Part shown: positions 3,515-55,624 of the stretch, piece after piece
How positions within the stretch are numbered: the first letter of the stretch is position 1
How the letters are laid out: each line of letters begins with the position of its first letter
Origin: Polytrichum commune
Lineage: Eukaryota > Streptophyta > Polytrichopsida > Polytrichales > Polytrichaceae
Assembly: GCA_950295325.1 (NCBI GenBank)
Contig: OX485804.1
Coordinates: forward strand, 43,586,001 to 43,650,000
Reading direction: 5' to 3'
DNA: 64,000 nt
Notes under the pieces: model-generated
Told to the model about the DNA's origin: nothing
What the model saw: the letters and a program-made list of their open reading frames with translations, nothing else
Database searches by the model: none
Made by a program: the position numbers and the translations under genes

Positions 3515-4688
3515 TCCCCAGTGTTCAAGTTTGAAGAGTGCACATGCATTTCAATGTGAAGGGCTTCAAAATAATCACACCTCACTCAAACTTTCAGACT
3601 TTTTTGCAACACTTCACAGAAGGAAAAAAACTTGATATTGGTTGTTTTGTATTGAATATGAAAATAATATGATGCCTCACTATATTGAGCAAGTACTTGC
3701 AATAGAATGATGTACTAAGATTATTTAGATTTCCTACATAATGCACTTAGTCATCATTCAACTCCAAAGGCAAAGCACTCTGATTTTTGGTCAATTTTTA
3801 AGTGTCAAAAATTCTAGCCCAATCCATATTTTCCATGGGAAGACTGCAGAAAGACACTTGTATTGATACATCCAATGTTTCAAGTTTCAATCGACTTCTA
3901 CAATCACTCTTCACCAACTCTATTTGGAAATCCACATTCACATATAGTTGTGCTTGCCAAGCCAAAGTTGCAGTCGGTGTCAAGTTGAAGTTGCAAAGTC
4001 GAAATTGCAAAAGTTATTGGAATTTGGAAGTGTATGCCATAGTGCCAAGATTGGAGTCCAACTATGTTTCTATTTGCAAATTGCAACCACAATATTGTGT
4101 GATAGGTGGTTTTTGGAGAGGCCTTCACTGTGGTTGATGGAAACTTTGCAGAGCACATTTTTGTGAAGTGCCCCAAAAAAAATCAAAAAAGTAAAAATAA
4201 AGATTGTCGGCCAAAATGGCATTTGACAGGTGTTGAAGACTCCAATATTGAACATTGGGCCTCCCCACCTGACTTGAGGTAACAACTGTTATTACTACTA
4301 AAACTGACCGGCCTTCCTGGAGGGTCCAATGTCAAAGTGCAAAGGGCCTCAGTTAGTATATCAACTATTTTCCTATTATCCAGATGGGTTTAAGGTAAAT
4401 ACATGTTTGACAATTTACCAATCTGCCAGCCCAGGGCTTGGGAAGAACCGGCGGTTAGTTACAGATGAACCGGTTGAGTTTGAGAAATAACCGGTTGAAG
4501 TTGGAGACTTCAGGAGGATTACCGGATCATTTCAGAGGAATCTATGGAGAATATACCTCAAATGATTAAAGAAAAATTGTAAGATGTCAACATGTAACCG
4601 GTTGGATTTAGAATCACTAGGATCTGGACTGACTATATATGCCCAAAAACTTCCCGGGCACTGCGCCAACCACATGTTCTTGAACCTG

Positions 4689-25305: not shown

Positions 25306-25310
25306 GAGTA

Positions 25311-27494
25311 TGTAGTTAGTTTTTGCTCTCACTTAAATAACCCAAAACACCAGGGTACAGACTCTCAAGGAAGGCTTAACTAGTGTCTATTACAGGCATT
25401 TGTCACTTCATAGTTCATTAATTAGACCAAGGGGTTGCTGTCTTCACTCTAAAACATGACTGGTATGTCTTTTACTTTCTTTTTCTCTCTTGGTTTCCTC
25501 TCACTGTGTCTCGTTCAGTGGGGTATGTGTGTCAGTCTCAGTAGTAACCATCTCGTCATGAGATTTTGTATAACAATAGTCTTTCGAGAACAATAGTCTT
25601 TGAGTAACACAATTGTCTTTGATAACCATTGGCCAATGCATCTTCAATTCAAGGCAATTCCTTTATTACTTGGTCAATGTTAATTCCAATACAAAACAAT
25701 TGTTTATTCCTTATCTTTGGATTTAATCTCTACTCACAACTTATGCAATTAACCATTATCCGTCAAGCTATAATCTTGGTCGCCCTGCACAACCTGCAAC
25801 CACAACAACCAAGGTAACACACAAGACAATAGTTGACAGGATTAAATCGCATTCCATACTCAAAGATCTCTCCTCTTGACTAGTTATCGATTATAAATTT
25901 GATTAAGATGAGATTAACTTATACCTAGATAACATTTATGAACCAAAGTTAATTCAATCCCTCTTACAATCCAATTGAAATTAGGTTAACTTATGCCTAA
26001 ATCTTCTTGATAACCCAAAGTTTAACCTATCCGACTTAATCTTGACAACCCTCACAACTTTCTCTAATCAACCGATCAAAAATGATTTCTCATCACCTCG
26101 GTTGATTGAGTTTCTCTCTTACTCACAATCTCCATTATTTTCAATTATAACACTAACAGCCTAAAGGTAGGATTTCACTATAATCTCTTTATGGCTGAAC
26201 TATAATCATTTTATCATAACGCCTCTCACAGGCCTCAACAATCGTCCATTGTGTCATTCCCAAACGCTGGACCCTTAGTCTTCCTCACCCTGTCTGACAC
26301 AGGCTAACAATGGTCCATAGTTTTACTCACAGGCTGACACTTGGCCATTCATCTTCCTAACACTGCCTATTCACAGGTCTTATCATTTCTCACAACTCTC
26401 AGGTAGCTCTCAGTTCGCCCTCTCACAGGGTTATTCCGACTATCGTTCAACCATGCTCTTTGTGTAACAATGATCTCTCTCGACGATAGTTCTATCCTCT
26501 CAATCTCTGTTTTGGGTCAACACCCTATGCTCATAGTGCGACTTGACTCATCACCCTTAATGCGGTTCTCGTTCAATATCTATCTCTTACGCAGAAGGTA
26601 TTTCCTCACGCAGATGATAGTTCTCTTTTGCCACAATCTTCTTCCTCTCAGGTCACAATTTCAGTTCGCTCAACAATATTTAAGAGTTTGCACTTAGGCT
26701 CTGGTTAATCAATGCTCAATCTTATGCGACAATAGTCTTCACTCTTACATTCATTTGTTAATCTCCCACACGGTACTTCTTCTTACAACTCCAGAAACTT
26801 CCATCTTCTCACACTTGCTTTGATTCTCTGCTCACATTGGTTACACTCTCATTAACTCTTGGACGCTCACTCTTCACAGCTTTGTCTTACTCACTTTCTA
26901 TCGCAATCACACGCTCTATTAATCGCAATGTAATAATAACAATAGGTTGTTATCTCTTACTCACTCAATCGTTACAGACGCACATTCTGTCTTGATCAAC
27001 AATGTTCTCAATCTCTCACTCAATCGGTGGCGACTTCAACAATGGACAATAGTTCACAATTCTCATGACTTCTCCGAAACCAGAAAATAGTTCGACTCAC
27101 TTCAGTCGTTTAATATAATCAAAATCAAAATCAACAATAAACTTCAGTAGAATCCAGTGTCCCGCAATCACTGCGGTGATCACTATATTTACCCTGAAGA
27201 TAGTTTAACAATGAAAACCTCACACGACTCTTGTGCTGAGGGAGACAAGCCCATAAGTTCAACTATGCGCTCAAAAATAATCGAAGGAATGTCTGCTCTG
27301 TCCTTCTGCGCCTCCCCTCTTACAGGGCGAGGGAGACAATAGTTTTCCTAACTACCTGCTAGGGCCTCCTATGGCCGTGACCATAGTTATAACTTCCTCC
27401 TATGGTTTAACTATATTCCTCCTATTGGATGACTCCATCCGAATTAAACTATAAGCCTATAGTTGAACTGAAATGACCAAAAATTTGGCTCACA
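25311..27494 (-). repeat. 3' LTR of the minus-strand retrotransposon
   Basis: 2184 bp. On the minus strand it begins TGTGAGCCAAATTTTTGG and ends AACTAACTACA. It is rich in a short CAATAGT/ACTATAG motif. Intact and essentially identical to the split copy. Confidence 0.93.
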
Positions 27495-36571: not shown

Positions 36572-36575
36572 AAAA

Positions 36576-38119
36576 TGTAGTTAGTTTTTGCTCTCACTTA
36601 AATAACCCAAAACACCAGGGTACAGACTCTCAAGGAAGGCTTAACTAGTGTCTATTACAGGCATTTGTCACTTCATAGTTCATTAATTAGACCAAGGGGT
36701 TGCTGTCTTCACTCTAAAACATGACTGGTATGTCTTTTACTTTCTTTTTCTCTCTTGGTTTCCTCTCACTGTGTCTCGTTCAGTGGGGTATGTGTGTCAG
36801 TCTCAGTAGTAACCATCTCGTCATGAGATTTTGTATAACAATAGTCTTTCGAGAACAATAGTCTTTGAGTAACACAATTGTCTTTGATAACCATTGGCCA
36901 ATGCATCTTCAATTCAAGGCAATTCCTTTATTACTTGGTCAATGTTAATTCCAATACAAAACAATTGTTTATTCCTTATCTTTGGATTTAATCTCTACTC
37001 ACAACTTATGCAATTAACCATTATCCGTCAAGCTATAATCTTGGTCGCCCTGCACAACCTGCAACCACAACAACCAAGGTAACACACAAGACAATAGTTG
37101 ACAGGATTAAATCGCATTCCATACTCAAAGATCTCTCCTCTTGACTAGTTATCGATTATAAATTTGATTAAGATGAGATTAACTTATACCTAGATAACAT
37201 TTATGAACCAAAGTTAATTCAATCCCTCTTACAATCCAATTGAAATTAGGTTAACTTATGCCTAAATCTTCTTGATAACCCAAAGTTTAACCTATCCGAC
37301 TTAATCTTGACAACCCTCACAACTTTCTCTAATCAACCGATCAAAAATGATTTCTCATCACCTCGGTTGATTGAGTTTCTCTCTTACTCACAATCTCCAT
37401 TATTTTCAATTATAACACTAACAGCCTAAAGGTAGGATTTCACTATAATCTCTTTATGGCTGAACTATAATCATTTTATCATAACGCCTCTCACAGGCCT
37501 CAACAATCGTCCATTGTGTCATTCCCAAACGCTGGACCCTTAGTCTTCCTCACCCTGTCTGACACAGGCTAACAATGGTCCATAGTTTTACTCACAGGCT
37601 GACACTTGGCCATTCATCTTCCTAACACTGCCTATTCACAGGTCTTATCATTTCTCACAACTCTCAGGTAGCTCTCAGTTCGCCCTCTCACAGGGTTATT
37701 CCGACTATCGTTCAACCATGCTCTTTGTGTAACAATGATCTCTCTCGACGATAGTTCTATCCTCTCAATCTCTGTTTTGGGTCAACACCCTATGCTCATA
37801 GTGCGACTTGACTCATCACCCTTAATGCGGTTCTCGTTCAATATCTATCTCTTACGCAGAAGGTATTTCCTCACGCAGATGATAGTTCTCTTTTGCCACA
37901 ATCTTCTTCCTCTCAGGTCACAATTTCAGTTCGCTCAACAATATTTAAGAGTTTGCACTTAGGCTCTGGTTAATCAATGCTCAATCTTATGCGACAATAG
38001 TCTTCACTCTTACATTCATTTGTTAATCTCCCACACGGTACTTCTTCTTACAACTCCAGAAACTTCCATCTTCTCACACTTGCTTTGATTCTCTGCTCAC
38101 ATTGGTTACACTCTCATTA
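36576..38119 (-). repeat. 5' LTR of the minus-strand retrotransposon, part nearest the PBS
   Basis: 1544 bp matching 25311-26854. The LTR is interrupted after ATTA (38116-38119) by the 16.9-kb DNA transposon and resumes at 54981-54985. The two parts sum to 2184 bp, the same as the intact LTR. Confidence 0.93.
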
Positions 38120-38147
38120 AACACTATATTCGTTATTTGGAGACTTT
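38120..38147 (+). repeat. Left terminal inverted repeat of the 16.9-kb transposon
   Basis: 28 bp starting AACACTATATTCGTTATTTG, followed by further GAGAC-containing sequence (near 38159). It matches 54953-54980 perfectly in inverted orientation. Confidence 0.93.
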
Positions 38148-39424
38148 TTGTTAATTTTGAGACTATTTAAGGACGTGGCTTTCACATTTATAGGAATGAA
38201 TACACTACAAATATGCTATGTTCCCAATATGGAAACAAATATGAAACTCAAATGCATGTAATTACACATATAAAAATAGGGAAATGGGACAATTACAACA
38301 TTTGCATATAGGAAATGGATATCATATTCATTGAAGAGGGTCAAAATACAAAATGCAAGTGGAATATCCACTATTAGGCCAAAGCCCTAGAAACACAAAT
38401 CCACATCTATATGTATTTTAATATAGCCTATACATTTGGACCATGAATAGGCGTCACTCTTTTGTTTTTGAAATACTATTATTAGCCTTTGCGGCCGTTT
38501 CTTTTTCTTTTGCTTTCATGGCGTCCATGGCTCTAAATATCTCGGCTCCGCGACTGTAACCTTGTTTATTCCCATTCCCAGCCCTCGAATATATGCCATT
38601 TTCCCATATTGGCCGACCCCCTACCGAATAAGTGGAATACGAACGTGTTTGGGAAACCGAACGTCTTGCACTCTTTCGTAGGGCCAAACAACGATCAGAC
38701 TCGCAAGTCGCAGTCTTCAGTGTTCGCCTATCCAATGACGGAGTGGAGGATGCACCTCCCACATCCATGTATATTGGGGTCTGAAACAATGACCATAAAT
38801 ATATATAACGACGTGGGTTAGTATAAGTTACGGATGTAAGTCCGAAAAACCCAAGAATTTGAAATGCACTAAATTAATATGCGGACATCATGAACGAAAA
38901 ACTTGAGAATGCCAATAGTGGGGCACCTTGGCCTTTGGGGCGGCGGTTTGATCTTCAGGGACATCGAGGGGAGTAGACACAAGCACAACCGGGACGTTCG
39001 TAAAGGCCGGGACATCAATGTGGGGTTCATCCATGCAAAGACGCCTGGTCGACCGTGGGTTTCGAACGTGCTTCTCATTGCGGAGGGGAGATGGGGATGG
39101 GGGTAGAGCGTAATTGAGCTTTGCAACCTTTGGAGGAGGGCTATCGACAACTCCGTCTTCGAACCCCGAGTCTTTGGAGTAATCCACGGCAGAGGCGGCA
39201 TCGACGGCCGAAAATTGAAATAGTGAAGGCATTGAAACGTCGGTCACACCAATGGAAGGGGAGCTGGGGCCCGGCTGAGATGTAGACATGCCATGTCCGA
39301 GACTTTGGGATGCTTGGTGAGGCAACTAAGGCACAAAAATACATTTACAAAATAAGGAGAGAAATGTTAGATATAAACATGGAGAGTCCAAGTACGGAGC
39401 CAAAAAGTATCAAAGTTCTCATAC

Positions 39425-40186
39425 CAATTTATTGAGTTCAGCAAAGCCGTACAACCTCCTAAATTCTGTATCTCTTGGGCCTAGAGGTCTATTGCCAATA
39501 CGATTTGAGAGGACAAAATCCGGGACACTTCCGGAGTGATGGGCAAGCCTTCTAATGTAGGGTCCTAATTCTAACTCTAGGAAGTTGTCGTTTCTATCGC
39601 CCTCCCAAGGGTTCGGGAAAATGCAGTTGCCCGGGGGGTTGAGAACGCTCTTCGCCGGGCTGTCGTCAATGAGGAGCGTGTTCTCCGGAGTGGGCCAATA
39701 ACCTTGGGGGACCCCCTCCAACATTGGGACGCCCACCTAGAGGTTCTTCCTCAGCACCTTAAGGAATTGAGGTCCGCGGCCTCCTCCGACCTTGGGTACA
39801 ATGTTGCCGCTACGGTCATAAAGGTCATCGCAGTGTTCTTGACCGAGAAGCAAGCACGGCATTGCGAGTTCTCGGAAAAGGAAACTGACGACGGCCTTCG
39901 TGTTGTCCATCAGCATGGAGCTCCAGATGATGACATGGGCCAAGCCGAGGACCTCACGAAGGAAGCACCTCAAGCCGGGCCGGACGCGCACAACCTTCTT
40001 GTTAATTAGTGTATCGAAGCGCCCGCCGTAATCCATGTCTTGTGGAGTACGGTAGGGACCCTTGGACGCACTATTGGAGATATGTGTGGATTGACAAAGC
40101 ACGCCATTGAGGTCAAATATTATGAAGTTTTTCCTCATAATATGGCTTGGTCTTTCGGCGGGGTGGCGACATATCTCCGACGGACC
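39425..40186 (-). other. FCP1/NIF-like HAD phosphatase domain (exon 4)
   Basis: Domain annotation within the minus-strand gene. The order of motifs is that of CTD-phosphatase-like (FCP1/NIF, Dullard-type) HAD proteins: nucleophile motif DLNGV, then VRPGLRCFLREV, IIWSSM, CLLLGQEHC, and finally TLLIDDSPAKSVLNPPGNCI with the PNPW segment. Family members remove phosphate from Ser/Thr. The Asn in place of the acid/base Asp occurs, to my knowledge, in a plant NIF subgroup as DLNG. Catalysis is therefore uncertain. The TAG at 39739-39737 splits the domain. Confidence 0.75.
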
Positions 40187-40482
40187 CTGTGATGGCACAT
40201 ACTACCTAGGTGAATGGCACTACCCAGGAAAACCAAATGACAAGCATGCAAAAACGCAACAAAGAAATGCGAGGCAACAAGTATCCGAAGAACTATGCAG
40301 TTCAAAAAATTGTATTAATGTGTTTGGTGATATACATTTCGCGAATAATTTACATTGTCACTAAAGGTCTCTCCTAAGATTAATTGAGCCTACACTAGCA
40401 AAATTGGATCCGCCGCCGCGGGCGAAGTCGAGATTCGAACTCAAAAATATGCACACGCCACGAAAGCTGGCTGACTGGGAAC

Positions 40483-40616
40483 TTACGGACGCGCGTCCGT
40501 AAAGAGGGAGGCATGCTCAAAGGTTGATTACCTCTTCAGCGGTGAGTTCCTCGCCGGCAGTGCCTCCCTCACCAGGCCCAGTTGCGGGGCCAGGTTCCGG
40601 ACGCGCGTCCGTAAAT
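40483..40616. repeat. Palindrome cluster: 40483-40502 and 40596-40616
   Basis: 40483-40502 is the exact 20-bp core TTACGGACGCGCGTCCGTAA in the intron between exons 3 and 4 of the minus gene. The copy at about 40596-40616 has one degenerate arm (TTCCGGACGC) and is the only copy lying in a predicted exon, where it would encode Phe-Thr-Asp-Ala-Arg-Pro in the corrected frame. Confidence 0.9.
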
Positions 40617-42002
40617 TCGCCCTGCGTGTCTTCCACCACCAACAAATCGGCTCCACCTGCTTGCGACGCTTGCGTGCCGACGAAAGGTTGATCCTCATGC
40701 GAGGAGTCTTGGCCCCCCCCCGCATATGTACATCTTCATCGGCGAGGGGGGCGTCGCCCATGTTGACATCTTCATCGTCTCCTATGGCGGGAGGGGAGGG
40801 CTCTGGAGCGGCAGCAACCTGGGGAGGGGGCGGGACAACCAACGCGGGGGCCGTATAGGTGTGCTCCGGTATGTACACCGTGTGGCTGCTAGAAGGAGTG
40901 CGCACCAGAACGGGGGGCACGGACATGGCGGGCTCGGGCGCTGCATACACCACCTGGGGTCTTGCCTGCAAGCTTGCCATCATGCTCATGAATTGTTGGC
41001 TTTGAGCCAAGAATTGTTGATTTTGAGCCATGAGGTCGGCGTGCCTCCGAGCAGACTCCAACCTAGCTTGCTCCATCTCAGCTTGGATGGCGGCCATCTT
41101 CCTGGCGTGCTCTTCGTTGGCCTCCCGGAGCCGCATGTCAAGCTCTTCCTTCATCCTCTTCTCCATCTTCTCGTCCAGCTCGGAGACGGACATGGGCTCT
41201 CTCTTCACCTTGCCTGGCTCAGAAGGCAAGGCGGAGATGGAAGCGTACAGCCTCACCTCATCCTCGTCTTCATCTGAGAGTTCCAAGACGGCACCTTCGG
41301 GGTATTCGTTGTAAGGCGTCTTGTTCCTCTGCCGCCGGCTTGCACGGTAGGAGTCGATATCGGGCCTCGATATCAACTCTAGCATATCTCTACCTTCCAT
41401 GGGCGGGAGCGCCGCCTGCTCACTGGGCTCTCCCCCACCAGAGGACGCCGTGCATCCGGTTTCTGCAGCAAGGTCCGCATCCCTCTCCGCCATAAGCCTT
41501 GCAGCACGAGATGGCCCCGCAGTGGAAGGAAGCCCAACTCGAGAAGTGGGAGTCCCAAAGGGTGATAGACTAGGCGTATTATGAGGCACCCGAATTGGAG
41601 TGACGTTGGGCTGCGCCTCCTCTGCATCCATGTCGTCTTCACCCAGGAGATACGCCACGCGATACACTGGATGACGAGCAAGACCGCGCAAGTCTTCCTG
41701 CCTGGAGGGCTGTCCTTTTGGAGACATTGGATCATCGTCTCCATCGCTGCCCCACCCGCCTGCATGAGAAGGCTCCTCTCTAGAGGCAAGAGGAACAATA
41801 GGATGTGGGGTAATGATATCCAAGAAGTCATTGAGATCCATTTTCTCTGCAAGCTTCCTGTGATCTTTGCACTCATCCATGTCGCCAACCCCCACAAACG
41901 AGTTAACCTGCAACCCAAGCATCTGCACCAAATAAAAAAAGTTAGTGGATTGTTGGTATCAAGATTGAATTGACGGGGAAGATGGACATACAAACATGAT
42001 GC

Positions 42003-42155
42003 AGTGTGCATTTTACGGACGTGCGTCCGTAAAATGCACACTGGGTTAGGTTTGATAACTTTACGGCCGCGCGGCCGTAAATATGCACTGCAGCGCGGCC
42101 GCAAAGTTGAAATGAACTAGGTGGTTAAACTTTACGGTCGCGCGGCCATAAAGTT
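42003..42155. repeat. Palindrome cluster in intron 2 of the minus gene
   Basis: 42003-42042 is a 40-bp palindrome with one central mismatch (arms AGTGTGCATTTTACGGAC). 42060-42081 is a perfect palindrome with GGCC replacing GGAC in both arms. A partial copy lies near 42092 and an imperfect one at 42128-42155 with AACTTTA/TAAAGTT arms. All lie between exons 2 and 3 (intron 42194-41923). Confidence 0.9.
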
Positions 42156-43577
42156 GCATCAGGTGGAGGCATGAAAGTTTTTTTAAGTACTTACCAATTC
42201 CGCATAAACAAATTTGGTCCCCCCGAAGACGTTGTACACTGTCTCACTCATCACAGTCATAGCCTTCAATACTCCTATGTAAAAGTCCATTCGGAGCTCG
42301 GTTGCCGGGCAGATTGCGAACATCGCCTCGTCCATTAGCTCCTTGGGGTGTGGAGGCGGCAACTGGTAAATTTTCTTGAACACGCTCTTCGCCTTTACAG
42401 GCAAACGCCCACTTGGCGAAGACTTCCGTGTCAAGAAATAGAGACATATAGCGCCGACCTGCTTTACCCCCCTTGCTTCTTCGATGACGGCGATGCCTTC
42501 CGTCTTTGCGGGGACGTATGTGCTGTGGAAGATATTGTATTCGAGATCCATCGTCGAGTTGTATAGGTCGACGACCGCTGCGGATCTCTCTTGGTCCACA
42601 ATCCACAGCCACACGTTTGGCTCCAGAAGTGCAGGGGACCGAAAGCTCTTGAAAGATTTCAGGAAGCTGTCGTAGAAAGGGGTCCCCGGAGGAGGTTGTT
42701 TCCAAGAATTTGGAAATGCACGGAAATCAAAGATAGCAAAAGGACAACCCCGGGGGTCATCTCTCACAGTGGCCCGCGAAGCATGGGTGTCCCACTTGCC
42801 GAACTTGAATTGTGATGTCACAGCGCAAAACCTCGCGACACCCTCGAATTTGGCATTCTTCTTTCTATCGAGGAAGTGTTTATATAAAGTTGTCTCCCTT
42901 TCGTCGATAGAACCTTTCTTCTCGTTCTTTCTTGAGCGTTGGGCCAAGAACGGAGATGCTGCTCTTATCAATGCCTTCATTGAGACGCCATTGATGTGGT
43001 ATGCTATTTTCAATCCCCTCCAGTTGTCCCACACAATGTCACCATCTGCATCTGTAAGGTTGTAGGCGGGTACCAATTTGCCTATCTCCCTCATAGCCAA
43101 TGTCTTCTTCTTCCTGTATTCGCACCATTCCTTAATATGGTACGTTGAAGGCTTCATAAACCTTGGTCGTTTGAGGAAGATTTTTGGATACGGCGCTGTC
43201 CTTCTCGGAGTCTCCTTAAGAAGGTGTTCTGCCGCCTTGTAAAGCTCGGCATCGAGCAACCCTTGGAGGGGACGGAAGAACTCTCTGAGGATTGGAGGCA
43301 CCTTAATCTTCAGGTCCTCTTTGTACTTCTTCTCCGTCTCAAGGTTGATGAGTTCTCCGTTGCTGTGTGCATGGAAGACGCGCATCCAGATAGCCCAGGT
43401 CCTACCCGACGAAGTGATGAGCTTCAGTTCGCCCTTCAGATCTTGCACTGTCTTCATGCCGCTTTGCTTCATGTCAATGCTTGAGAACTTCGTCACAATC
43501 GCACTGCTGAATGCCTGCAAGTAGAGAAACAAATGAGTTGTTGAAATGAGATCAAAAAATGGAATGAGAACCGTCTA

Positions 43578-43677
43578 GTTTACGGACGCGCATCCGTAAA
43601 CTTGGAGCACACAAAGAATAAAGGGAAAGTTTACAGAAAGAGTGAAGGAGAATTTACGGACGCGCGTCCGTAAATTC
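43578..43677. repeat. Palindrome pair in intron 1 of the minus coding region
   Basis: About 43578-43602 (one mismatch pair) and 43650-43677 (28-bp perfect palindrome with GAATTT arms). Both lie in the intron 43692-43515. Confidence 0.9.
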
Positions 43678-45025
43678 ATTTGGGAATATTACCTGCCATT
43701 TGGGATTCTTGACGACTGCGTTGTCCCTCTCTTTTGGTGGACAGCCGTGCTCCTCCCACAAGGTCCTACCAGCCACGATGTTGGCTGCCCATGACGCCTC
43801 AAACGCTTTGATTTTGTTTGTCTGGTTGAGGAAGGCAGATATGGCGATGAGCTGATTGGAGTCCTCTGAATGCACGAGAAGTGCCTTCCAATATCAGATT
43901 GTGGGTTTCAGAGGGCTCTTCCAATTATCGTCTGCGAGGAGAGCTTTTGCCGCTTCCACGCTATGCTGGCCGTCCACGATGTAGAATTCCCCTTGCTTAA
44001 TAATTGGCCAATGTTCTGGTGTGACCTCCACGATTGGATCCTTTGGGGTCACACATATGGTCTGCCGGTCAGCTTTCGGGTTGTTCATGATGTTGTTCAT
44101 CTGCCACCAGACCCCGTTCTCTTCTTGCACCCGAGTATTCATACTCTCGGTGCCCTGGTGACATTTATAAACATCCACGTCAAATGTGAAATACCTGCCC
44201 ATTGGCCAGCAGGCTTTTGTTTTTTCGTCGAACTCTTGTTGAATTTTTGTTGATAGATCAGAGTTCGGGCGTTCTCCTTTCTTCAGAAGTGGTGCGACAG
44301 TAAGGGTGGAGCTGACATCTGGACCTTCGGTAAGTCCAGATGACTCCATCTGTGAATGAGAGCGTTTACTGGATGGTCTGCTCCCTCTCGATGCTCCACT
44401 TTGGGACGGTTTTGGTCCTTCCGGGACTGTCTGTGGAACACGCGGTTGTCGTTCAGAAACGACTTTCTTCTTCCTTTTCCCCTTTCTGGACTCCAGGACT
44501 GCCCCATTCACTCTCGTGACATTGTTGAGGAGTCTTCCAAGCCGCTTACCCGTCCAAGGTGCATTGCATGCATAGTCTTGGAATTCAGTTGCAAGATTGA
44601 AGCAACCCGCATCCGGGCTGCCATTTTCGCATTCAGCCTTGTGGAATGGATGTCTGTGCTCATGAAGAAGAATTGTGACTCTGTCATCTTGTTTTTCAAG
44701 ATCTATGACGACATAGTCACCTTGGGCCACTGCACACTCTATTGACCAATTTTTAACTCTAACCCATTTATCTACGTCTATATCTTTGGTATTCATTTGA
44801 TACCCAAATCTAAGTACGAATGTGTCATTCTCAAGTTTCTCTACGTAAACTGTCCAGTTGTCTACTGTGTCTTCGACTGGCTTGTAGTGATCGTTGTGGC
44901 TTATATCTTTGATGGCGGGTGGAAGTGGAGGCGGAAGAAACTCAAATGCCTGGTCAATTGCAGGTCTTTTTGTAGATGCCATCTGCAAATGCAAAAAACA
45001 ATGCTTAGCATCATGATCAATGTCA

Positions 45026-45660
45026 AGTTTACGGACGCACGTCCGTAAACTTTCCACAGGTTGTTTTGAATTATAATGTCAGAATGAACTATCCGAAAAG
45101 ATTTTGCATATGTCAATACGAAATTTCACATGTAGTTTATGGACGCGCATCCGTAAACTATCAACGGGTAGTTGGGGATGAGAATCTCAACTATGAACAA
45201 AGATAAGATTTAATAAGATAGTTCTAGTTTACGAACGCACGTCCTTAAACTAGTAGTTGGGTTTACGGGGTTAGCACTAATTTACGGACGTGCGTCCGGA
45301 AACTAGGAATGGGGTTTACTTGGATGTCACTAGTTTACGGACGCGCGTCCATAAACTAGGAATGGGGTTTACTCGGATGTCGCTAGTTTACGGACGCGCG
45401 TCCGTAAACTACGAATTTGGTTTCCTCGGATGTCACTAGTTTACGGACGCGCGTCCGTAAACTAGGAGTGGGGTTTACTTGGATGTCACTAGTTTACGGA
45501 CGCGCGCCCGTAAATTAGGAAAATATACTGTCCATTAGTAATAATATTGTTTTTTAAATATATCCAGAACTTACGGACGCGCGTCCGTAAGTTCTGGATA
45601 TATGTTGCATGCTTCACCCACCTGGTGCGTCAAAGTTTACGGACGCGCGTCCGTAAACTT
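45026..45660. repeat. Array of ten palindromes upstream of the minus-strand start codon
   Basis: Copies lie at about 45026, 45132, 45225, 45281, 45331, 45384, 45436, 45491, 45558 and 45633. 45558-45603 is a perfect 46-bp palindrome, 45436-45465 a perfect 30-bp one (CTAG arms) and 45633-45660 a perfect 28-bp one. Five copies share an ACTCGGATGTCACTAG-like context at about 50-53 bp spacing, so that part grew by tandem duplication. The array lies in what looks like a 5' UTR intron ending at the TTTGCAG acceptor before 44982. Confidence 0.92.
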
Positions 45661-45724
45661 CAAGCCCTACATTGGTTAATCTGGTCCTTGTTGAGAGGGT
45701 TCCGGATTTTCAGGAAGGTGGTTT

Positions 45725-46405
45725 TGTATATGATGCAAAATACAAGCAAACCAGCAAAGAACAAAAAAACCAAGCAATCAAACAATCAAACCAGCAAGTA
45801 AAAAAACAAGAAATAAACTAAAATACAATCAAACAAGCAATCTATGTACTTATGCAAGAGGCCAGCAAGTAAACAAACAACCACGCCAGCAAGCAAAGCA
45901 AAGCCAAGCAGCAAGCACAAGCAAATCAAACAACTGTAAGCAAGCAAGCACACAAGCAAAAGAGAGAAAAAACAATCACAAGCAAGCACATAAACAAAAG
46001 ATTAAAAAACAATCACAAGTAAGCACAAGCAAGCACAACCAGCTAGCAAGCACAAACAATGACACAAGCAGCAGGCAATCAAACAATTAAACAAGCAAGT
46101 CAAAGCAAGAAATTAACTAAAACACAATCAAACAAGCAACCTATGTCATTATGCAAGAGGCCAGCAATCAAACAAGCAACCAAGCCAGCACAACAAAACA
46201 CAAGCAAGCACAACCAGCAAGCACAAGCAATGCAAAGCAAAGCAAAGCAAATCAGCAAAGCAAAGCAAAGCAAAGTAAAGCACAAGCCAAGAAAGCACAA
46301 GCAAAGCAAAGCAAAGCAAAAGCAAAGCAAAGCACAAGCACAAAGCAAAGCAAAGCAAACCAGCAAGCACAAGAACAAACACAAACACAAACAACAAACA
46401 ACCTT
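45725..46405. repeat. Low-complexity AAGC/CAAAG tract
   Basis: About 680 bp are composed almost wholly of CAAGCAAAG-type words (plus strand A, C and G; almost no T). A longer duplication links about 45830-45910 and 46130-46220. On the minus strand it is a T/G/C-rich tract inside the proposed 5' intron. It gives long spurious open frames on both strands. Confidence 0.85.
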
Positions 46406-46630
46406 GTGAGGTGACCAGGAGCGCCAACAGCAAGAGGAGAGGAGCGCGGAGAGAAGCGCCAACAACAAGAGGAACGCGGGGAGGAGAGGGTTTAGGGTGA
46501 CAACAACAAACCCTAGAGAAGCAAGAGAGGAGCGTGAGAAGAATGTGAGGAAGGAGAGCGAGAGAGGGGAGGCGGAGAAATGAGAGGGTGAAAATGGGCA
46601 AATGAAACCCTAAAACCCTTAAATACTCAA
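46402..46630 (-). promoter_or_regulatory. Probable promoter and 5' UTR of the minus-strand gene
   Basis: Read on the minus strand, AGTATTTAAGG (about 46628-46618) could serve as a TATA box. It is followed by a pyrimidine-rich leader with CTCTCTTGCTTCTCTAGGGT, typical of plant 5' UTRs, and a donor-like CACAAG-GTTGTTTG near 46401. The acceptor would be TTTGCAG before the ATG at 44982, so the first intron would be about 1.4 kb and contain the palindrome array. Inferred, no transcript evidence. Confidence 0.4.
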
Positions 46631-46685
46631 GAGGAGCCTCCCAAACGCCCCGACTCCCAACGTCCCATCCACCCCGCACCCCATC

Positions 46686-46695
46686 GCCACGTGGC
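46686..46695. promoter_or_regulatory. G-box palindrome upstream of the minus-strand gene
   Basis: GCCACGTGGC, an extended plant G-box (core CACGTG), lies about 60 bp upstream of the TATA-like sequence. G-boxes bind bZIP and bHLH factors. It differs from the transposon palindromes. Confidence 0.5.
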
Positions 46696-46739
46696 TGAAC
46701 CCTATAGGTTCATATTGGAGAGGTATGTGGCACACCTCT

Positions 46740-48415
46740 CCCTCTTTAGTAAGACACGTTTGGAAATCACAAAAAATGTCGTATTATCGACATGTTGTCT
46801 TCTCGTTAATATGACAAACGCTGTAAAATTGTCGTACTATTGAGCGAATAAAAAAACAAAAGAAATATGAGCTTCAAAACACACACAACGGATGTAAGCA
46901 ATTATTATATATATTGTATGAAATAATAACGTATAACTTCAAACAAATACAAGCGTTCTCAATAATTATTGAAATAAGAGTCCAGTGATCTGAGTCTAGT
47001 GTTGCCTACCTAAGTGAAACAAGTTGTCTAATAAAAAATTAGACAACAATGATGCATAACGTTGACGCTTTAATATTGTACGTGAAAAAACATCATCCAA
47101 ATGAACCAAATGCAAATTAACATTAAAATCAAAGCCTTCTGCATTATTGATTCCCAAAATGGCATCCACCAACTCAACAACCATTATACACACTTCTTGC
47201 TCAATATCATATGCATATAAGTATTAGTTGACATGTCACCATCATCCAGTCGCAACATCCAATTACACTAAATATCACTAACCCTATGAAAGTAAGGTAC
47301 TTTTAACTGTGAACTCAAACACTAAATTTCAACTATTAATGGTAATAAGTGGAAGTGACATATAATGTGTACCATTAATTATATGATTAAAATTTAACAA
47401 TGACAAAAGGAGAAGGGACATGGTAGTAACATAGCATGTAAGATACAAATTGTAAAAACATAGCACCAGTAACAATTGGGTTCTGCACCTTGTACTCGAA
47501 TATAGTCTTTGTTTAAAATAATCTCTTGAAACCCTTATTTTCATTAAATAGTGGCAGACTCTTGGTCTGAAACCTAAATATCACCCTTATTTCATTTTTT
47601 CCATGTCGACATAAATATTTATATATTTCACATTTTCATTCGTAGGTTTATTTGGGAATTGTTGTTCTGCCAACCGACTATGGTGCTAACCCAACTCACA
47701 CCATATTACTTCATAACTCCACATGATAGATTGTTTGATATTAGTCCTTCAATGTAGCATCATATTTATGACAAAGCCCAACTAACATAAGGTGAAGATG
47801 CATGACCTGGAGTCATATTAGTCACCTTTCATTTATTAATACCCTAACCAAACCCATTCTACAATACAAATCCTAATGTTTATTAAGTTCACAATGATAA
47901 GCCTAGGGAAGTTTTCGGTATTGAAACTATAGAACAATATGAGGTTGAGTAACTCAAGTGTAACATTTTTTTGTGGAGTTGTTGCAATATGAAGGTAAGT
48001 GGACTTTAAATGACTAGTACACTAACTATCGCTTATTATTACGAATTACGATATGCTACAACTATTTATTGTATGATAGTATATCATTGTCCACAATTAA
48101 ATTACATCAATAAAAAAAATTTAAAGATTAAGCATTTTGTAAATACAAACATCGACATATGCCACTATTTGGACTCCTCTATCAAGAGTCTTTGAAAATA
48201 TTTGTATTTGTTTGGAGTTATTAGCTCTTATTTCATATCATCTATATTGCCTATTAAACTTGTTGTATATATATCTTTGCGCTCATTTTTATTATGATAA
48301 TTTCGTATTCCCTCAATAATATGACAACTTTACGCCACTTGTCATATGAATGAGAAGACGACACCTAGATAACATGACCTTTTTGTGTTTCTCACACTTG
48401 TCATACTAAAGAGGG
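46740..48415. mobile_element. 1.7-kb non-autonomous element with about 110-bp terminal inverted repeats
   Basis: CCCTCTTTAGTAAGACACGT at the left is mirrored by the right end (TCATACTAAAGAGGG). The imperfect inverted similarity continues for roughly 110 bp through GTCTTCTCGTTAATATGACA-like sequence. The interior has no gene. Long terminal repeats suggest a MULE-like element, but I find no 9-bp target duplication, so the assignment is open. It lies inside the 16.9-kb transposon. Confidence 0.6.
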
Positions 48416-50300
48416 TGAACAATAATGACATTCATGTTCGGTTTGGATGAATTTGCATGTTAATCTCTTTAATTCTTGGAGGACATAACTCTCGTCCGTC
48501 ACTTGAGGTCATCCTAAGCCGGTATCAATAACATAACCTCGAAGTGCGAGGCTTGGAAGAAATTTCACCATATTTTGAGAAGAACGATATAATACTATGG
48601 GTTGAGGGTTTAGGGTTTAAGGGGTTTAGCATGAATGCAAGTCTAGAACCTAGGGTGAGCATTCAACTACCCTACTTCTTGTAATCATGAGGCCAAATTG
48701 CTTGCCTCTCATTTGAGAGTTTTAATGATAAAATGAGGTAGTGGGGGATGTCAATCCAACTACACTCTTTGGAATCTTGTGTCAAGAGTTCTTGAAAATG
48801 TTTGTATTTGTTTGGAGTTATAAGCTCTTATTTCATACCATCTAATAGGGTTGAAGTCATATGCCTATGATATTATCTTGCACAACATTACGAATTAATT
48901 CAATCCCTTTGAACATAGGTCTAGTAAGCTTGTATTAAAAGTGCACGCAAGGGTATGTATTGAATTTACATCCCTCTTGTACATTAAACAACCATCGGGA
49001 TTCATTGAATCCTTCCACGAGCTTGTATATCACCTACATCAAGTAGTAGCAAACTGTTTTTTATTCTAGAGTTTTGTTTCCATGGTGACATGGATTGATG
49101 TGTTAAGTACTCCATTAAAGAATACCAATTAATATATAAGATCTTCAAAACCTTTCATCAAAAGTATATGTTAAGAGCAAATGGCTAAAGCCGGCTTGGA
49201 ACATAAATATTATAATGATCTTCAATGTTTTGAAGCCTTAATTGTTTCCATATTTGTATCCCTTCATTTCATTTTAAACTTGGGGTCACATCAAAGGATA
49301 ACAAGTCCCGGCTAAATCTTCTACTTGCATGTAAGGGGTACATTTCACCCAAAAAAAGTAAGATTCAAAAAAATGAAAGTTAGGGTTACATAACCCAAGT
49401 TTTATGGCTCTCATTAAAGGATACCAAATGAAGATTTTGTACATGGCAATTAGAATTGTTATTGACAGTTTCATGAATATTTGTTCAATGTCATATACTT
49501 TTTCACCACTTACTCCATCTTGCAAAATAATTGGTGTTGTTCAATAACTAAGAATGCTTGCAACTAAACCCTAAACCCTAAACCCACCAAACTCTAAATC
49601 CTACCTAGGTCCATAGATGTTCTACTTTCATGGCCTCACGGAAATCAAAGTTTCTGTATGTATTAATAAATTTTTGTGTAGGTGGAGAAATTAAAAGGGT
49701 TGGATGGTAGGGTGGTGGCCGATTTTATTACAATATTAAATGCAAGATGAGAGGAGAGAACATGATATTATAATATCATAAGATTGTATGCAAAACAATT
49801 AAATAGTTGCTAGATTATTTCCGAAGCACATATATTTTTATAGTTCATGGACTACAAATGTTGTTGTGGTGGTTGATTTTTTATACGATTCTATAATTTT
49901 TTGTCCACAAATTCTACAATGAACTCTTAATATTGGGTACTCCATTAATATAAACCCCCCCTCAACAATGTTTATTGCTCATATAATATTAACCAACTTG
50001 CTTTGTTATACACCATAAATATATAGATGCCTTTTGCTTTGTCATTATGTGGAGTCATGGTCAAATGCATGTTGGCCGCCATGAATACACATTCCATTGC
50101 AAGGCTGGCATTCTCCATGTTGGAATATTAGGTTTTTGTTTTTATGAAAGAGTTGGCAGCTAGTATCCTATGCTGAAGAAAGGATCCAAGGGAAGACGAC
50201 GAGTACTTAAGGGAAATCCCCCCACTAAGGGACTCTTTTTGCATCTCAGATGTGGGTTGCGCTCTTGAGACCCTTGTAGTGTGGTGGATACTTGTTTCGC
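48416..50300. other. Central non-coding part of the 16.9-kb transposon
   Basis: AT-rich, with only short frames. A 70-bp segment (48775-48842) repeats 48172-48245 (TGTATTTGTTTGGAGTTATA). Three CCCTAAA units occur near 49566-49585. The promoter of the plus-strand gene should lie at the right edge, about 50.1-50.3 kb. Confidence 0.45.
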
Positions 50301-51236
50301 GCAGGTATAGATCCTATTGCAATGAACCTATTATACCCTAAACCCATATTCGATTTGCACTATCTGGATCTCTGAATGCGATGGATTCTATTTCTGACAG
50401 GTATTGTTCACGCTTCAAGTGTCCTATTATGACGCCGCAAATTACGGAACTTTACGGACGCGCGTCCGTAAACATTACATCTCTTGACTTATTTGCTTAT
50501 TGAATATCTCATATCTTATTGAATCTCTCAGTGGCTTGTTGCATCATTGAGTATCTCAATCTATTTTCATTGGCTCATTGAGCATTTACAAGTAGGTTTA
50601 CGGACGCGCGTCCGTAAACATGCATCCTTTTGGTGTCACATGGTGGTATGTCATCTACAATGTGGGTTGTGAATTATTATCTGTTTTGATAGTATGCATA
50701 TTTGTTCTGATGAATATTTACGGACGCGCGTCCGTAAATCTTGAACCTTTTGCATCTGTTCTAGTAATGAGGTAAAGGTAGGTTTTCGGACGCGCGTCCA
50801 TAAATATACAAACCTCTTGCATCTGTTCTAGTAATGAGGTAAAGGTAGGTTTACGGACGCGCGTCCGTAAACATACAAACCTCTTGCATCTGTTTAGTAA
50901 TGAGGTAAAAGTATGTTTACGGACGCGCGTCCGTAAACAGACAAACCGTTGGTACACATTCAAATACATTACTGGTAAGGCCAGGAGGTAAAATTTAGTG
51001 TAAATGTAAATGGGGCTGGGACTTCTTGGTTCCTTGCAACCCTATTTGTTTTGGACACAATTATCATTTGACATAGGGATGTTTACGGACGGGCGTCCGT
51101 AAACATACATTGTTTAATTTGCCAAGACGTTTGCGCCTAACCCTGACATCTCTTATCAGATAATGATTTGCGGACGGGCGTCCGTAAACATACACTGCTT
51201 ATATTTTATCTCATTCTTCATTTGGCTCTCTTGTAG
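50301..51236 (+). other. Probable 5' UTR intron of the transposase-like gene
   Basis: Candidate donors are GCGCAG-GTATAG (about 50304) and GACAG-GTATTG (about 50398). The acceptor CTCTTGTAG ends at 51236, five bases before the ATG at 51242. Eight palindromes lie within it. Inferred from splice signals only. Confidence 0.5.
50451..51189. repeat. Array of eight palindromes upstream of the transposase-like gene
   Basis: Copies lie at 50451, 50596-50619, 50716-50739, about 50782, 50849-50872, 50915-50938, 51081-51104 and about 51167. Four are perfect 24-bp palindromes (GTTTACGG... or ATTTACGG...). Three share the context ATGAGGTAAAGGTAGG and AAACCTCTTGCATCTGTT at about 66-67 bp spacing, so they arose by tandem duplication. 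The last two share a GACGGGCGTC centre. Confidence 0.92.
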
Positions 51237-51241
51237 TGGCC

Positions 51242-54200
51242 ATGGATTCCGACGTCGGTGAAAGTGCGTCCGATTTCTCCTCGGAACCGTCAAGCTATGC
51301 TAGCGAGTTTGAAGATGTCGTGGAACAGGAAGCTACAAATGGTGTGGCCGATGCAGATGATGAAATCATACCACCATGTGAGGGTTATTCGCGGGAGCAG
51401 TGGGTTGATCTTGATGTTGTACTACTCAATGCATGTGCCGTTCCCGTGGCCAACGGTGTTTGTAGGAACTCGAATCCAACGGATTGTATTGATGCAAAAC
51501 CCCTCGGGGAGGACGATGTTGGGGTGTGCATATTGAACTCCTTACTTCCATCGGAAGTGCCTCTTGGTTGGAGGTTCTCTCTCCGTCGATGGCCTTTGCG
51601 AAGTGTTCATCACGATGGTGTGAGCTTGTGGGATCAATCCCGCCGATTTGAGCAACTGCAACAGTCTTTGTTCGCTACAATGCGTCCCAGACAAGGTCGT
51701 CGTAAATATGATTCCGTTCGTGTGCCTCGTGAACCCACGCAGCGTCGTCGAGATCATACATTGGGAGACACATCTATTAGGTCCGTAGCCACAAAGGATT
51801 GTTGTGCGAAGAAGTGCTGCCAACTATTTCCCCGTGGCAAAATCAAATCTTTGAGGCAAGAGATGTGGCTTGCCGACTTTCATATGCGGTCTGCCAAGAA
51901 ACTTGAAGTACATTGCAACATGCACTTGGATGCCGGAGGTTGTAAGGTTGTGACCTTGGAAAATATAGAAGTTTGTTGCCGGGCATGGTACATTATTCAT
52001 GCCGTTTCAAAGGCAGATTTTTATAGGTTCTGGAACTACTCGCTGCAAGGAAGGCGTTCTCGGTTTCATGGCAACTCAGGTACAAAGAAGCCCAGGGAGG
52101 CAACACTCCAAGCGGCTGCAACTCTGTCAACCATTATTATGCCATTAGCGGATGCGATGCCACACAAGACACGCACTTTGCCGTCGGGGGAAAAGGTTGT
52201 TCAGATGGTTTTACCCACAGGGACAAAATGGAAGAACATACTCGTGGATGTTAATGAAGTTGGTGAAAATGTTGGATGTGGGCCGATTTCGTTGTCAAAA
52301 TTGAGTGTGATCAAGAATCAACAGTTCGCTGAATACATTACGAAGAGACCCGGGGATAAGTTTGCTAGGTGTTCTACTTGTGAAAAATATAAAGGCCTTC
52401 GAAACGCACATCCAATAGGGACCGAGTCGCACACCAGACATCAACAGAAATACATTGAGCATGTCAACAACCAGGAGGCACACCGTCAAGACTACTACAA
52501 GAATCGCGCCTTATCGATAATGAGGCCGAACGAGGTGTTGACAATCATTCATGACAAAATGGACCATGCGAAGACCGCTTGCCCTTGTTATGCGCGGAAA
52601 ATAAAGGCCACAGATGGATATTTCAAGTTGCCAATATCTGTCACAGGTTCGTTGGTTTTCATTTTTTTGGCGTGCCCACATACTCATTTTTAAGAGTTAC
52701 GGATGCGCATCCGTAACTCGTCTGTGCATGGTTGTTCCTTACTTGCGGCAATATCATATTTCCTTTATATATATGATATTGGAATGTACTTCTCATTTGT
52801 ATGTCTTAATTCAGGTATGATTGCACATGGCCATGTGGACGTCAAGTATGCAAAATATGGCTTGGATTTCTATCCAGGCGACGCCAATCATACCGTAGGG
52901 TCTTTTGCAAAACTTCTACGAGATCTTGAGAGTCCGCCAACATCATCCTCGCGTGCTCTTTTTGTTGGATGTGGAACAACTCCGATTTATGAGGCTGTGC
53001 TAGAGGGGAAGGAAGTTTGTCTATCTTCACTTCAAGAACCGCCTGAACAACCCGTTCTTGCTAAACCTTTGCCTCGAACTCTACACGTGCAACTTGACAA
53101 TTGTGCCAAAGATAACAAATGTCGATACGTGTTTTGTTTCTGGTCATTGCTGGTAGCCAAGGGCATTTTCAAAGAAGTGTTTGTGTCTTTTTTGATGGTT
53201 GGCCACACGCACGATGACATCGACGCTTCATTTGGACGTTGGAGTATGAAGTTGCACGAGGAGGATTTTCCGACAATTCCTCTTCTCATGAAATCATATA
53301 TGGATTTGGACAATGTGCCAGTCATTCCACATTTGATTGAAGAAGTGCCCGATTTCAAATGGTTTATAAAACCATTCATTCTTAAGGGGTCTGACCGACT
53401 AGTGGGCCACACCAAGGCTCAACAATTCCGATTTTATATGCGTGACGATGGTCTGCCCGCCATGCAATTCAAAGTTTTGTGCACTTCCCTGAATTGGGGT
53501 CCGGAGGAAGGGATACTCATTTGGCACAAAAACGAAGATGGCAAATGTGTGCTACCTGATGGTGAGCCGAAGCCTTGCACACCCAACCCCATGAGGAATG
53601 GGCCAGAAATCATCAAAGGTATATCTGGATTCATTGAGTATTGGAAAGAATTGTGCGAGGAAGACATCACAAGACGTGTTAGGGATACCCACGAACCATT
53701 GATTGCGTATTGGGATCGCATTCGCACGGCATTGATAGCACCCGATGTTGATACACATTCATGTTTGACACAAGGGTTTTGGCCACAAAGTCGAGTGACA
53801 GTCGTGGAATCTAAGGCCATGTTGTTTAACAATGGGGACGTTCGTGAAGAGTTCGCTGCGGACGATCATTATGTTGGCCCTGCTCGCAATCGACCGGAGC
53901 CGTCGTTTCGTGTTGGGGTTGATTGCCACGAAGGTTATTTGCTGCTCGTACGTGCTGGGGATGAGGAGCATCCCAAGCCAATTTGGTTGGTGAAAGCATT
54001 GTCATCACCAAACTTTGTTTCAACTAGTCCAAATTTTCGCCAAATTGAGGTGGAATATTGCCGTCCAAGCACCAAAGATCAAAATGTGCTCCGGACATAT
54101 TTAGGGTGGGACACCAAAAAAGGTTTCAAATGGACAATGGACTCATCATACGAACCGGTTTGGATAAACACAAATGCCATACTTTGTGCTTGGAAACCAC

Positions 54201-54349
54201 GCAAAGGTTCGAAATCAGAGACAATGACCATCCCGCAAAAACATATAGATTTTGCCAAAGACAACTTGGCACGTATCGCAGCTGCGGAAAACGATCTTGA
54301 AAATGGAAATGAAGTTGAAGATGAAGATGAAGAGAGGGAATTATATTGA
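51242..54349 (+). CDS. Putative transposase of the 16.9-kb transposon (QLDN / VGHTHDDID family), intact
   Basis: CDS join(51242..52646, 52815..54349), 979 codons. The donor is CACAG-GTTCGT, the acceptor AATTCAG, and the phase-1 junction restores a Gly codon. The ATG at 51242 lies just after an acceptor and starts an acidic tail (MDSDVGESASDFSSEPSS). Paired cysteines occur near residue 190 (CCAKKCC), at about 377 (CSTCEKYK with following His residues) and at about 450 (CPCYARK), suggesting zinc binding. In exon 2 HVQLDNCAKDNKCRYVFCFW (about 560) and VGHTHDDIDASFGRWSMKL (about 597) are hallmarks of a widespread eukaryotic family catalogued as DUF7869-like. The spaced Asp residues fit an RNase-H-fold DDE nuclease, but that is inference. 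It is the only intact gene of the element, so it is the best transposase candidate. The C-terminus is acidic (EDEDEERELY). Confidence 0.8.
52694..52719. repeat. Palindrome in the intron of the transposase-like gene
   Basis: Perfect 26-bp palindrome GAGTTACGGATGC and its mirror. Both arms carry GGAT/ATCC in place of GGAC/GTCC, so the change is symmetrical. It lies in the 168-bp intron 52647-52814. Confidence 0.95.
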
Positions 54350-54952
54350 CGTACGTCGGGACCAAAGTTAGTTGAAATGTGTATTTGTTTGTCATTAATA
54401 TATGACATTGGGGTTGAATATTATATTAGACACATTTTATAGATTACAACTAGTATAATATCATTGCATGACTGTATTGATTTACGGATGTGGAATCACC
54501 CTTCCCATGCGCTATCAAATGTTTTCTAGTATATGTTTATATTTACGGATGTGGAATCCAAACTATTTAATATTGCATATTATGTTAATTTGTAAATTCC
54601 AATTAACATTGTCAATTTATTTTAAGTATTGTTGCAGTTGGGATGTGCCATTCAATTCAACCACAATAGGCCAAGAGCTTTATGTTTCGGATGCGATTCC
54701 AAGAGTCAATACATATAAAATTAGATGGCTATTTATGGATTCATTACTTTTGTTCAACACAATCCCAAAAAAACAAATAATCATGTAATTGTGTGATTTG
54801 ATTCTCATCCCCATACTTACTATATTTAGTAATATATATAGTTCCATCGCATATGGATTTCTAAAACATTATGATGTAATTGTTCCCGATGTTCCCTACG
54901 TTCACAATATTCGCATCCGAAACTATGGGTCCAATTTATTTTGAGACTTTCC
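54350..54952. other. 3' flank of the transposase-like gene and right subterminal region
   Basis: AT-rich. TTTACGGATGTGGAATC occurs twice (about 54480 and 54541), each resembling half of a palindrome. A similar half-site (GTTACGGATGTAAGTCC) lies near the left end at 38828. No gene. Confidence 0.5.
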
Positions 54953-54980
54953 AAAGTCTCCAAATAACGAATATAGTGTT
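54953..54980 (-). repeat. Right terminal inverted repeat of the 16.9-kb transposon
   Basis: Perfect inverse of 38120-38147. Just inside, GAGACTTTCCAAAGTCTC (54943-54960) forms a small hairpin that overlaps the repeat. Confidence 0.93.
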
Positions 54981-54984
54981 ATTA

Positions 54985-55624
54985 ACTCTTGGACGCTCAC
55001 TCTTCACAGCTTTGTCTTACTCACTTTCTATCGCAATCACACGCTCTATTAATCGCAATGTAATAATAACAATAGGTTGTTATCTCTTACTCACTCAATC
55101 GTTACAGACGCACATTCTGTCTTGATCAACAATGTTCTCAATCTCTCACTCAATCGGTGGCGACTTCAACAATGGACAATAGTTCACAATTCTCATGACT
55201 TCTCCGAAACCAGAAAATAGTTCGACTCACTTCAGTCGTTTAATATAATCAAAATCAAAATCAACAATAAACTTCAGTAGAATCCAGTGTCCCGCAATCA
55301 CTGCGGTGATCACTATATTTACCCTGAAGATAGTTTAACAATGAAAACCTCACACGACTCTTGTGCTGAGGGAGACAAGCCCATAAGTTCAACTATGCGC
55401 TCAAAAATAATCGAAGGAATGTCTGCTCTGTCCTTCTGCGCCTCCCCTCTTACAGGGCGAGGGAGACGATAGTTTTCCTAACTACCTGCTAGGGCCTCCT
55501 ATGGCCGTGACCATAGTTATAACTTCCTCCTATGGTTTAACTATATTCCTCCTATTGGATGACTCCATCCGAATTAAACTATAAGCCTATAGTTGAACTG
55601 AAATGACCAAAAATTTGGCTCACA
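54985..55624 (-). repeat. 5' LTR of the minus-strand retrotransposon, distal part
   Basis: 640 bp matching 26855-27494. It ends in CACA and is followed by the GAGTA duplication. On the minus strand this is the start of the LTR, where the promoter would lie; the DNA transposon separates it from the genes. Confidence 0.93.

Follow-up and report, generated by a model that had tools for sequence, protein, structure and literature searches.

We found that a DNA transposon within a 64,000-nucleotide stretch of the Polytrichum commune genome (contig OX485804.1, positions 43,586,001 to 43,650,000; hereafter the window) is densely set with copies of a 20-bp palindromic core, TTACGGACGCGCGTCCGTAA, and we consider that these sites are probably read by a dimeric protein which the element itself encodes and which would act on the element's own genes. 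The transposon carries two divergent genes (Table 1): the right gene presumably encodes the transposase, while the product of the left gene is our candidate for the site-binding protein. To our knowledge, few elements offer a detailed understanding of how a transposon can escape silencing without derepressing the whole host genome. The present genome brings together hundreds of transposon copies, 20-bp sites that differ between lineages and a diverging candidate reader protein, which opens the joint change of protein-target pairs to direct testing with binding assays and methylation maps.

The core was detected at 26 places in the window with up to three mismatches, from 40483 to 52716, all inside the transposon. 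A 27th palindrome with five mismatches lies at 38828, also within the element, and nothing further was met in the 64 kb at up to five mismatches. Twenty simulated 64-kb sequences (first-order Markov) together yielded one site at up to five mismatches and none at up to three, and the single perfect palindrome with arms of at least 9 bp found in the window outside the transposon (9162) has a different sequence. An earlier note on this DNA had reported about 27 copies at 40483–52719, confined to one transposon with AT-rich surroundings, and none in the remaining 47 kb. The number and the confinement to one transposon stand, yet the degenerate site at 38828 falls outside that interval, the element is larger (38120–54980, as bounded by its 28-bp terminal inverted repeats (TIRs) and by an uninterrupted twin long terminal repeat (LTR)), and AT-richness does not hold throughout, as exons 1–3 of the left gene have 48–58% G+C.

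According to our gene models, drawn from open frames and splice signals alone, ten sites precede the left ATG and eight the right ATG, whereas introns A, B and (probably) C of the left gene contain two, three and one, the right-gene intron one and the coding part of exon 3 one. The same note had placed ten and eight copies upstream of the two genes, with others recurring in the coding-region introns. The counts and the intronic recurrence agree with ours, but "upstream" probably means 5′ leader introns, because both start codons closely follow an acceptor-like AG, which adjoins the left ATG and precedes the right one by 5 bp (7/7 copies each). Six palindromes of the left cluster belong to a 53-bp tandem array (45224–45521) and four of the right cluster to a 67-bp array (50717–50947). 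Purine-rich repeats of the AAGCA type (+ strand, 45735–46384) extend between the left cluster and a possible left promoter.

A scan of the genome (408 Mb in 64 contigs, seven of them large) gave 1026 exact occurrences of TTACGGACGCGCGTCCGTAA and none of the reversed control; at up to three mismatches there were 6407 against two, a count to which some sites of the sister motif described below may contribute. We examined the placement of the 71 distinct exact sites among the matches listed, every one of which lies on C1, from 25.4 to 39.0 Mb. All 71 group into ten clusters, each of which was fetched and contains exons of this transposon, one of them (25.98 Mb) being an element fragment. No solitary palindrome outside the transposon occurs among these 71 of the 1026 exact sites, and to that extent the restriction of the core to one transposon, for which a genome scan had been suggested, was confirmed.

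Conservation of the sites was assessed in nine stretches (the window and eight others) with 187 sites at up to five mismatches, those with five being admitted only if mostly symmetric. In three introns compared between lineages, the cores are identical at 391/440 positions (89%) and the sequence outside the cores at 957/1646 (58%), the core identity being somewhat inflated because core columns were chosen for resembling the consensus in each of the two copies. This contrast stems from introns A and B; for copies D and E the values are 93/100 (93%) in the cores and 354/392 (90%) outside them. The sites thus hold homologous intron places across lineages with diverged flanks, and the core and flank identities suggest that they are kept by selection although there are five CpG in the consensus core. 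The observed/expected CpG ratio of the leader regions is 1.59 and 1.25 with the sites vs. 0.71 and 0.25 without them. The array units preceding the start codons measure 53 and 67 bp in the window and copy G, 135 and 95 bp in copies B, E and F, and 97 bp on the right side in D, and are irregular in A and C; in intron B of copy I six sites are spaced at 48 bp. Unit length varies by lineage, with about one site per unit throughout.

In the window's site, the 9-bp half-site TTACGGACG occurs twice, in inverted orientation and 2 bp apart (TTACGGACG-NN-CGTCCGTAA). We determined its anatomy from 99 non-identical sites of copies W, C, D, E and S, copies A, B, F and G and identical repeats being dropped. 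Symmetric double changes number 16 in this set, vs. a permuted mean of 4.1 and a maximum of 12 in 5000 permutations, in favour of a two-fold site; they are located at about six homologous places and do not represent 16 independent events.

Six further stretches beside transposon ends with one mismatch were fetched, the larger elements there showing one end each. In L078, the left exons occur in the same order and are 42%, 54% and 31% identical to those of copy G, and a sister motif, TTACGAACG-NN-CGTTCGTAA, is found in the leader, in introns A and B and further on. In L081, the sister motif precedes the transposase gene, whose product shares 85–90% identity across most of the protein and 66% close to its N-terminus. 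L082 retains decayed sites of the GAACG type, as judged by eye. Among 24 sister sites picked by likeness, the centre is unpaired in 19/24 and each of the other nine pairs in 0–5/24; position 6 is A in all 48 half-sites, vs. G in 90% of the window motif. Since the centre pair is mostly unpaired, what is preserved in the sister motif is the inverted half-sites rather than a perfect palindrome or hairpin. Genome-wide, the sister motif has 3737 exact occurrences (control 0). The 100 listed places are clustered, some of the clusters lying in or next to L078, and 8 of the 100 have self-complementary spacers. A third palindrome, GAGGCCTCGGATCCGAGGCCTC, occupies 35 places at up to three mismatches in L077 (297–5364), mostly at a spacing of 96–129 bp, beside one end of the same transposon type. 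We regard it only tentatively as a private lineage motif, because a single end of that element was seen and its gene is not tied to the left protein, homology between the two not being supported by comparison.

These lineage differences bear on the possibility that the element captured enhancers serving a host transcription factor and multiplied them as its sites. Their tandem multiplication before both start codons would fit such an origin. Yet both half-sites switch between lineages (GGACG to GAACG), which would be odd for a fixed host factor, the sites also recur in later introns, and 0/71 listed exact sites lie outside the element; we therefore hold a host factor to be an unlikely explanation.

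Besides a dimeric protein, with which the kept half-sites and the free 2-bp centre of the sister motif agree well, the earlier note had offered RNA hairpins and a self-propagating palindrome, and both fared poorly. Intronic hairpins acting on splicing or small-RNA production would suit the apparent location of most sites in transcribed noncoding sequence and the extension of symmetry past the core. In turn, selection for RNA pairing would favour changes that leave G-U pairs, and the one-sided changes on the transcribed strand (28 C>T vs. 30 G>A) have no such bias; moreover, the free, mostly unpaired centre of the sister motif and the absence by eye of such a site from the introns of the right gene in both L081 and L082 make this reading very improbable. 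Still less credible is a self-spreading palindrome, or a functionless symmetric sequence produced by template switching. It can draw on the copy-specific symmetric flanks past the core (19 sites; mean 3.63 bp vs. 1.27 permuted, with 0/20000 permutations as high) and on a perfect 46-bp palindrome around one core (45558–45603), but it is at odds with the lack of solitary sites among the 71 listed, the homologous intron places retained despite diverged flanks and the unpaired centres of the sister motif.

As for the genes, the right gene contains the DUF7869 domain (PF25273, E 3.1e-38, 131.7 bits vs. a cut-off of 26 in Pfam); a literature search on DUF7869 found no paper. In the window copy the left gene is disrupted: in-frame stops interrupt exon 1 and the phosphatase exon, and the frame of exon 3 is broken; for each of these parts, open versions are found in copies elsewhere. 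Between the window and copies B, C and D, left exons 1 and 2 have a nonsynonymous divergence (dN) of 0.14–0.16 and a synonymous divergence (dS) of 0.9–1.7 (dN/dS 0.08–0.15), and the phosphatase exon a dN of 0.06–0.08 and a dS of 0.32–0.39; for the right exons (window vs. B and C) the values are 0.04–0.06 and 0.28–0.38. These ratios point to constraint on the left, right and phosphatase exons between lineages. The NIF/FCP1-like phosphatase domain inside the transposon (39419–40201), conserved in other copies with a dN/dS of about 0.2, is either odd cargo or a functional part. A likeness by eye of the left protein to a degenerate beta-class DNA methyltransferase was rejected, since in a profile comparison YhdJ and viral relatives reached a probability of 0.1 vs. 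0.2 for reversed controls; tblastn against phages gave no match. Structure prediction for left exon 1 from the single sequence reached a mean predicted local distance difference test score of 33.8, and searches for both genes and the palindrome in viral contigs returned nothing informative.

The sites might instead be cis-signals for transposition, bound by the transposase or a TnpA-like helper that pairs the ends. Lone half-sites or quasi-sites with TTACGGATG were found near the right end in 7/9 and near the left end in 7/9 copies inspected (the rest lacking them or unfetched there), and CACTA elements are described, in the part of the source used here, as having repeated subterminal motifs bound by TNPA (PMC2613891). 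However, the palindromes lie kilobases inside the element, and two short non-autonomous derivatives, L079 (456–707, 252 bp) and L080 (9379–9620, 242 bp), keep both transposon ends with no palindrome or half-site. Also, the transposase of L081 remains alike over most of its length, its N-terminal part excepted, despite the different motif. We judge this role improbable, to about the same degree as the host factor.

We thus return to the element-encoded dimer as the preferred reading. Our inference is that the sites are bound by a protein, that the left gene encodes this binder and that anti-silencing or activation is the outcome. We favour the left protein as the binder because the motif differs where the left protein differs, with most of the transposase alike, and because the two short derivatives do without sites. 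A dimer of this protein would recognise two inverted half-sites in the element's own DNA and load on the clusters that both genes have in their introns and 5′ leader regions; its loading would maintain the expression of both genes, probably, in the manner of VANC and TnpA, by counteracting the silencing that the host imposes on the CpG-rich element. By analogy with these two proteins, the effect may be loss of methylation, activation or both. The sites would multiply through tandem duplication, then be retained by selection, and their sequence would switch together with the left protein at lineage splits.

Several observations weigh against this reading. The left protein has no confident DNA-binding domain in Pfam, PDB and PHROG searches: a ParB-like match in PHROG (E 0.0069 with a 125-aa piece; 4/4 copies, best E 0.017) is below any safe level, Pfam gave no ParB family, with DUF6551 at best E 0.12, and the PDB sequence search gave no useful match. 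The co-evolution of motif and left protein is a correlation across two motif lineages and a tentative third (L077). Silent-site divergence is higher in the left gene than in the right, and the left half of the element appears to be older, or exchanged; the two halves may therefore have separate histories, and the contrast between the proteins may partly reflect age. Between close copies, dN/dS is often 0.3–1.4, which fits decay (window–G, B–E; few changes). In the right-gene intron, the core is scarcely better conserved than the flanks (0.80 vs. 0.80 for W–D, 0.90 vs. 0.93 for D–E). The centre of the window's own motif is not free, being CG in 75/99 sites; it is unpaired in 21/99, the highest of the ten pairs but not by a wide margin, the next having 13. 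Finally, the copy-specific symmetric flanks, also apparent over the set of 99 sites (2.72 bp vs. 1.34 permuted, or 1.70 when permuted within copy and side), are explained neither by dimer binding nor by any other reading considered here; template switching in quasi-palindromes is our guess.

Table 1. Transposon features in the window (positions within the 64,000 nucleotides)
Feature	Position	Strand	Remarks
Whole DNA transposon	38120..54980	.	16,861 bp; inserted in an LTR; ATTA target duplication on both sides; delimited by TIRs and twin LTR
Left TIR, AACACTATATTCGTTATTTGGAGACTTT	38120..38147	+	28 bp
Degenerate site	38828..38847	.	5 mismatches; similar sequence at the equivalent place in six other copies
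Left gene exon 3 and NIF/FCP1-like phosphatase exon	39419..41922	-	exon 3 about 40532-41922; phosphatase exon about 39419-40186
Palindrome in probable intron C	40483..40502	.	intron about 40187-40531, between exon 3 and phosphatase-like exon
Sole coding-sequence palindrome (exon 3)	40595..40614	.	mostly translated F(T/A)DARP(E/D)P across copies
Left-gene intron B	41923..42194	-	palindromes 42013, 42061, 42132
Left gene exons 1 and 2	42195..44982	-	exon 1 43693-44982, exon 2 42195-43514; fast-diverging, no confident known domain; candidate site-binding protein
Left-gene intron A	43515..43692	-	palindromes 43580, 43654
Left cluster, 10 palindromes	45029..45656	.	45029, 45137, 45229, 45282, 45335, 45388, 45441, 45494, 45571, 45637; probable 5′ leader intron
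Right cluster, 8 palindromes	50452..51187	.	50452, 50598, 50718, 50784, 50851, 50917, 51083, 51168; probable 5′ leader intron
Right gene, 979 aa	51242..54349	+	exons 51242-52646 and 52815-54349; DUF7869 domain; presumed transposase
Right-gene intron	52647..52814	+	palindrome 52697
Two direct half-sites TTTACGGATGTGGAATC	54482..54551	+	54482, 54543; right subterminal region; in 7/9 copies inspected
Right TIR	54953..54980	-	100% complementary to left TIR

The TIR pair is perfect. Target duplications are of 4 bp in all four complete copies with flanks read (ATTA, ACAA, TAAA and CCAT). The transposon interrupts the right LTR of a retrotransposon (25310–27494, 36575–38119, 54985–55624) with 2185-bp LTRs; removal of the element and one duplication copy gives an empty site that differs from the intact twin LTR (25310–27494) at just 1 of 2185 positions, so the insertion is recent. 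The last 26 bases of the left TIR occur 599 + 597 times in the genome at up to two mismatches (control 0), and the second exon of the right gene, used as a query, gave at least 79 near-full matches (79/79 scored, of 1849 first-look candidates). Elsewhere in the window, we noted long inverted repeats at 3515–6584/57554–60607 (94% identity), 20739–21972/62045–63247 (91%) and 18490–19244/63241–64000 (96%), as well as a disease-resistance-like gene at 9164–14821, in which kinase, NBS and leucine-rich repeats were recognised by eye and whose repeat part holds about 33 tandem units of 72 bp.

Palindromic sites in dimer-bound tandem arrays are known from bacterial ParB-parS and from sopC of the F plasmid. 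The present element likewise has palindromic sites in tandem arrays, which a dimer would bind; the ParB-like match of the left protein is weak and unconfirmed by Pfam or PDB, and no partition function is implied.

Among plant transposons, CACTA elements carry the Transposase_21/tnp2 domain, which was not found by Pfam in the right gene, where DUF7869 stands alone. Their TIRs start with CACTA and their target duplication is of 3 bp, whereas here the TIR starts with AACACTA and the duplication is of 4 bp. In the portions of the published accounts that we draw on, En/Spm and Tgmt* nevertheless resemble the present element in having an element-encoded DNA-binding protein separate from the transposase (a candidate here) and repeated, partly inverted motifs with a GC-rich part, and TnpA is linked to demethylation (PMC2613891, PMC10398659). 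Some of the CACTA subterminal repeats are described there as forming stem-loops (PMC2613891), and the corresponding part of the second source cites TnpA and MURA as further cases with no mention of palindromes or dimers (PMC10398659). The CACTA motifs, as described in those portions, are subterminal, while here the subterminal repeats amount to two half-sites near the right end and one quasi-site near the left end, and the palindromes lie in the interior of the element, within introns and leaders.

Pfam scans of the exon pieces did not find the VANC domains DUF1985 and DUF287, and the right gene encodes DUF7869, not a Mutator-type transposase. VANDALs are Mutator-like transposons, thus of another type than this element. 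Yet the logic of VANC and VANDAL21 of Arabidopsis is close: in the part of the report considered here, VANC21 sites form an element-specific motif, dense in introns, upstream regions and other noncoding parts, often in tandem repeats and with fast gain and loss, while related elements have different motifs and VANC diverges more than the transposase (PMC5735166). The VANC21 motif is given there as 9 bp, non-palindromic and in one orientation (PMC5735166), in contrast to the 20-bp two-fold CpG-rich palindrome found here. The earlier statement that no described plant transposon has this feature therefore overlooked VANC/VANDAL and TnpA/Spm, whose logic is similar even though sequence and symmetry are not. 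As judged from the matches listed, literature searches on anti-silencing, transposons and VANC contained no palindromic targets of this kind, and those on palindromes, introns and moss transposons nothing similar. The logic is thus known already from VANDAL and Spm; new, as far as searched, are the kind of transposon, the CpG-rich site with its two-fold symmetry and the motifs private to each lineage. It is conceivable, though we incline to doubt it, that a family of DUF7869 transposons represents a second, independently evolved system of plant transposon self-recognition (anti-silencing), in which a dimeric protein specific to each lineage, its DNA-binding fold maybe derived from ParB-like proteins, would read a private set of palindromic sites in each lineage, with at least two and possibly three motifs in one genome.

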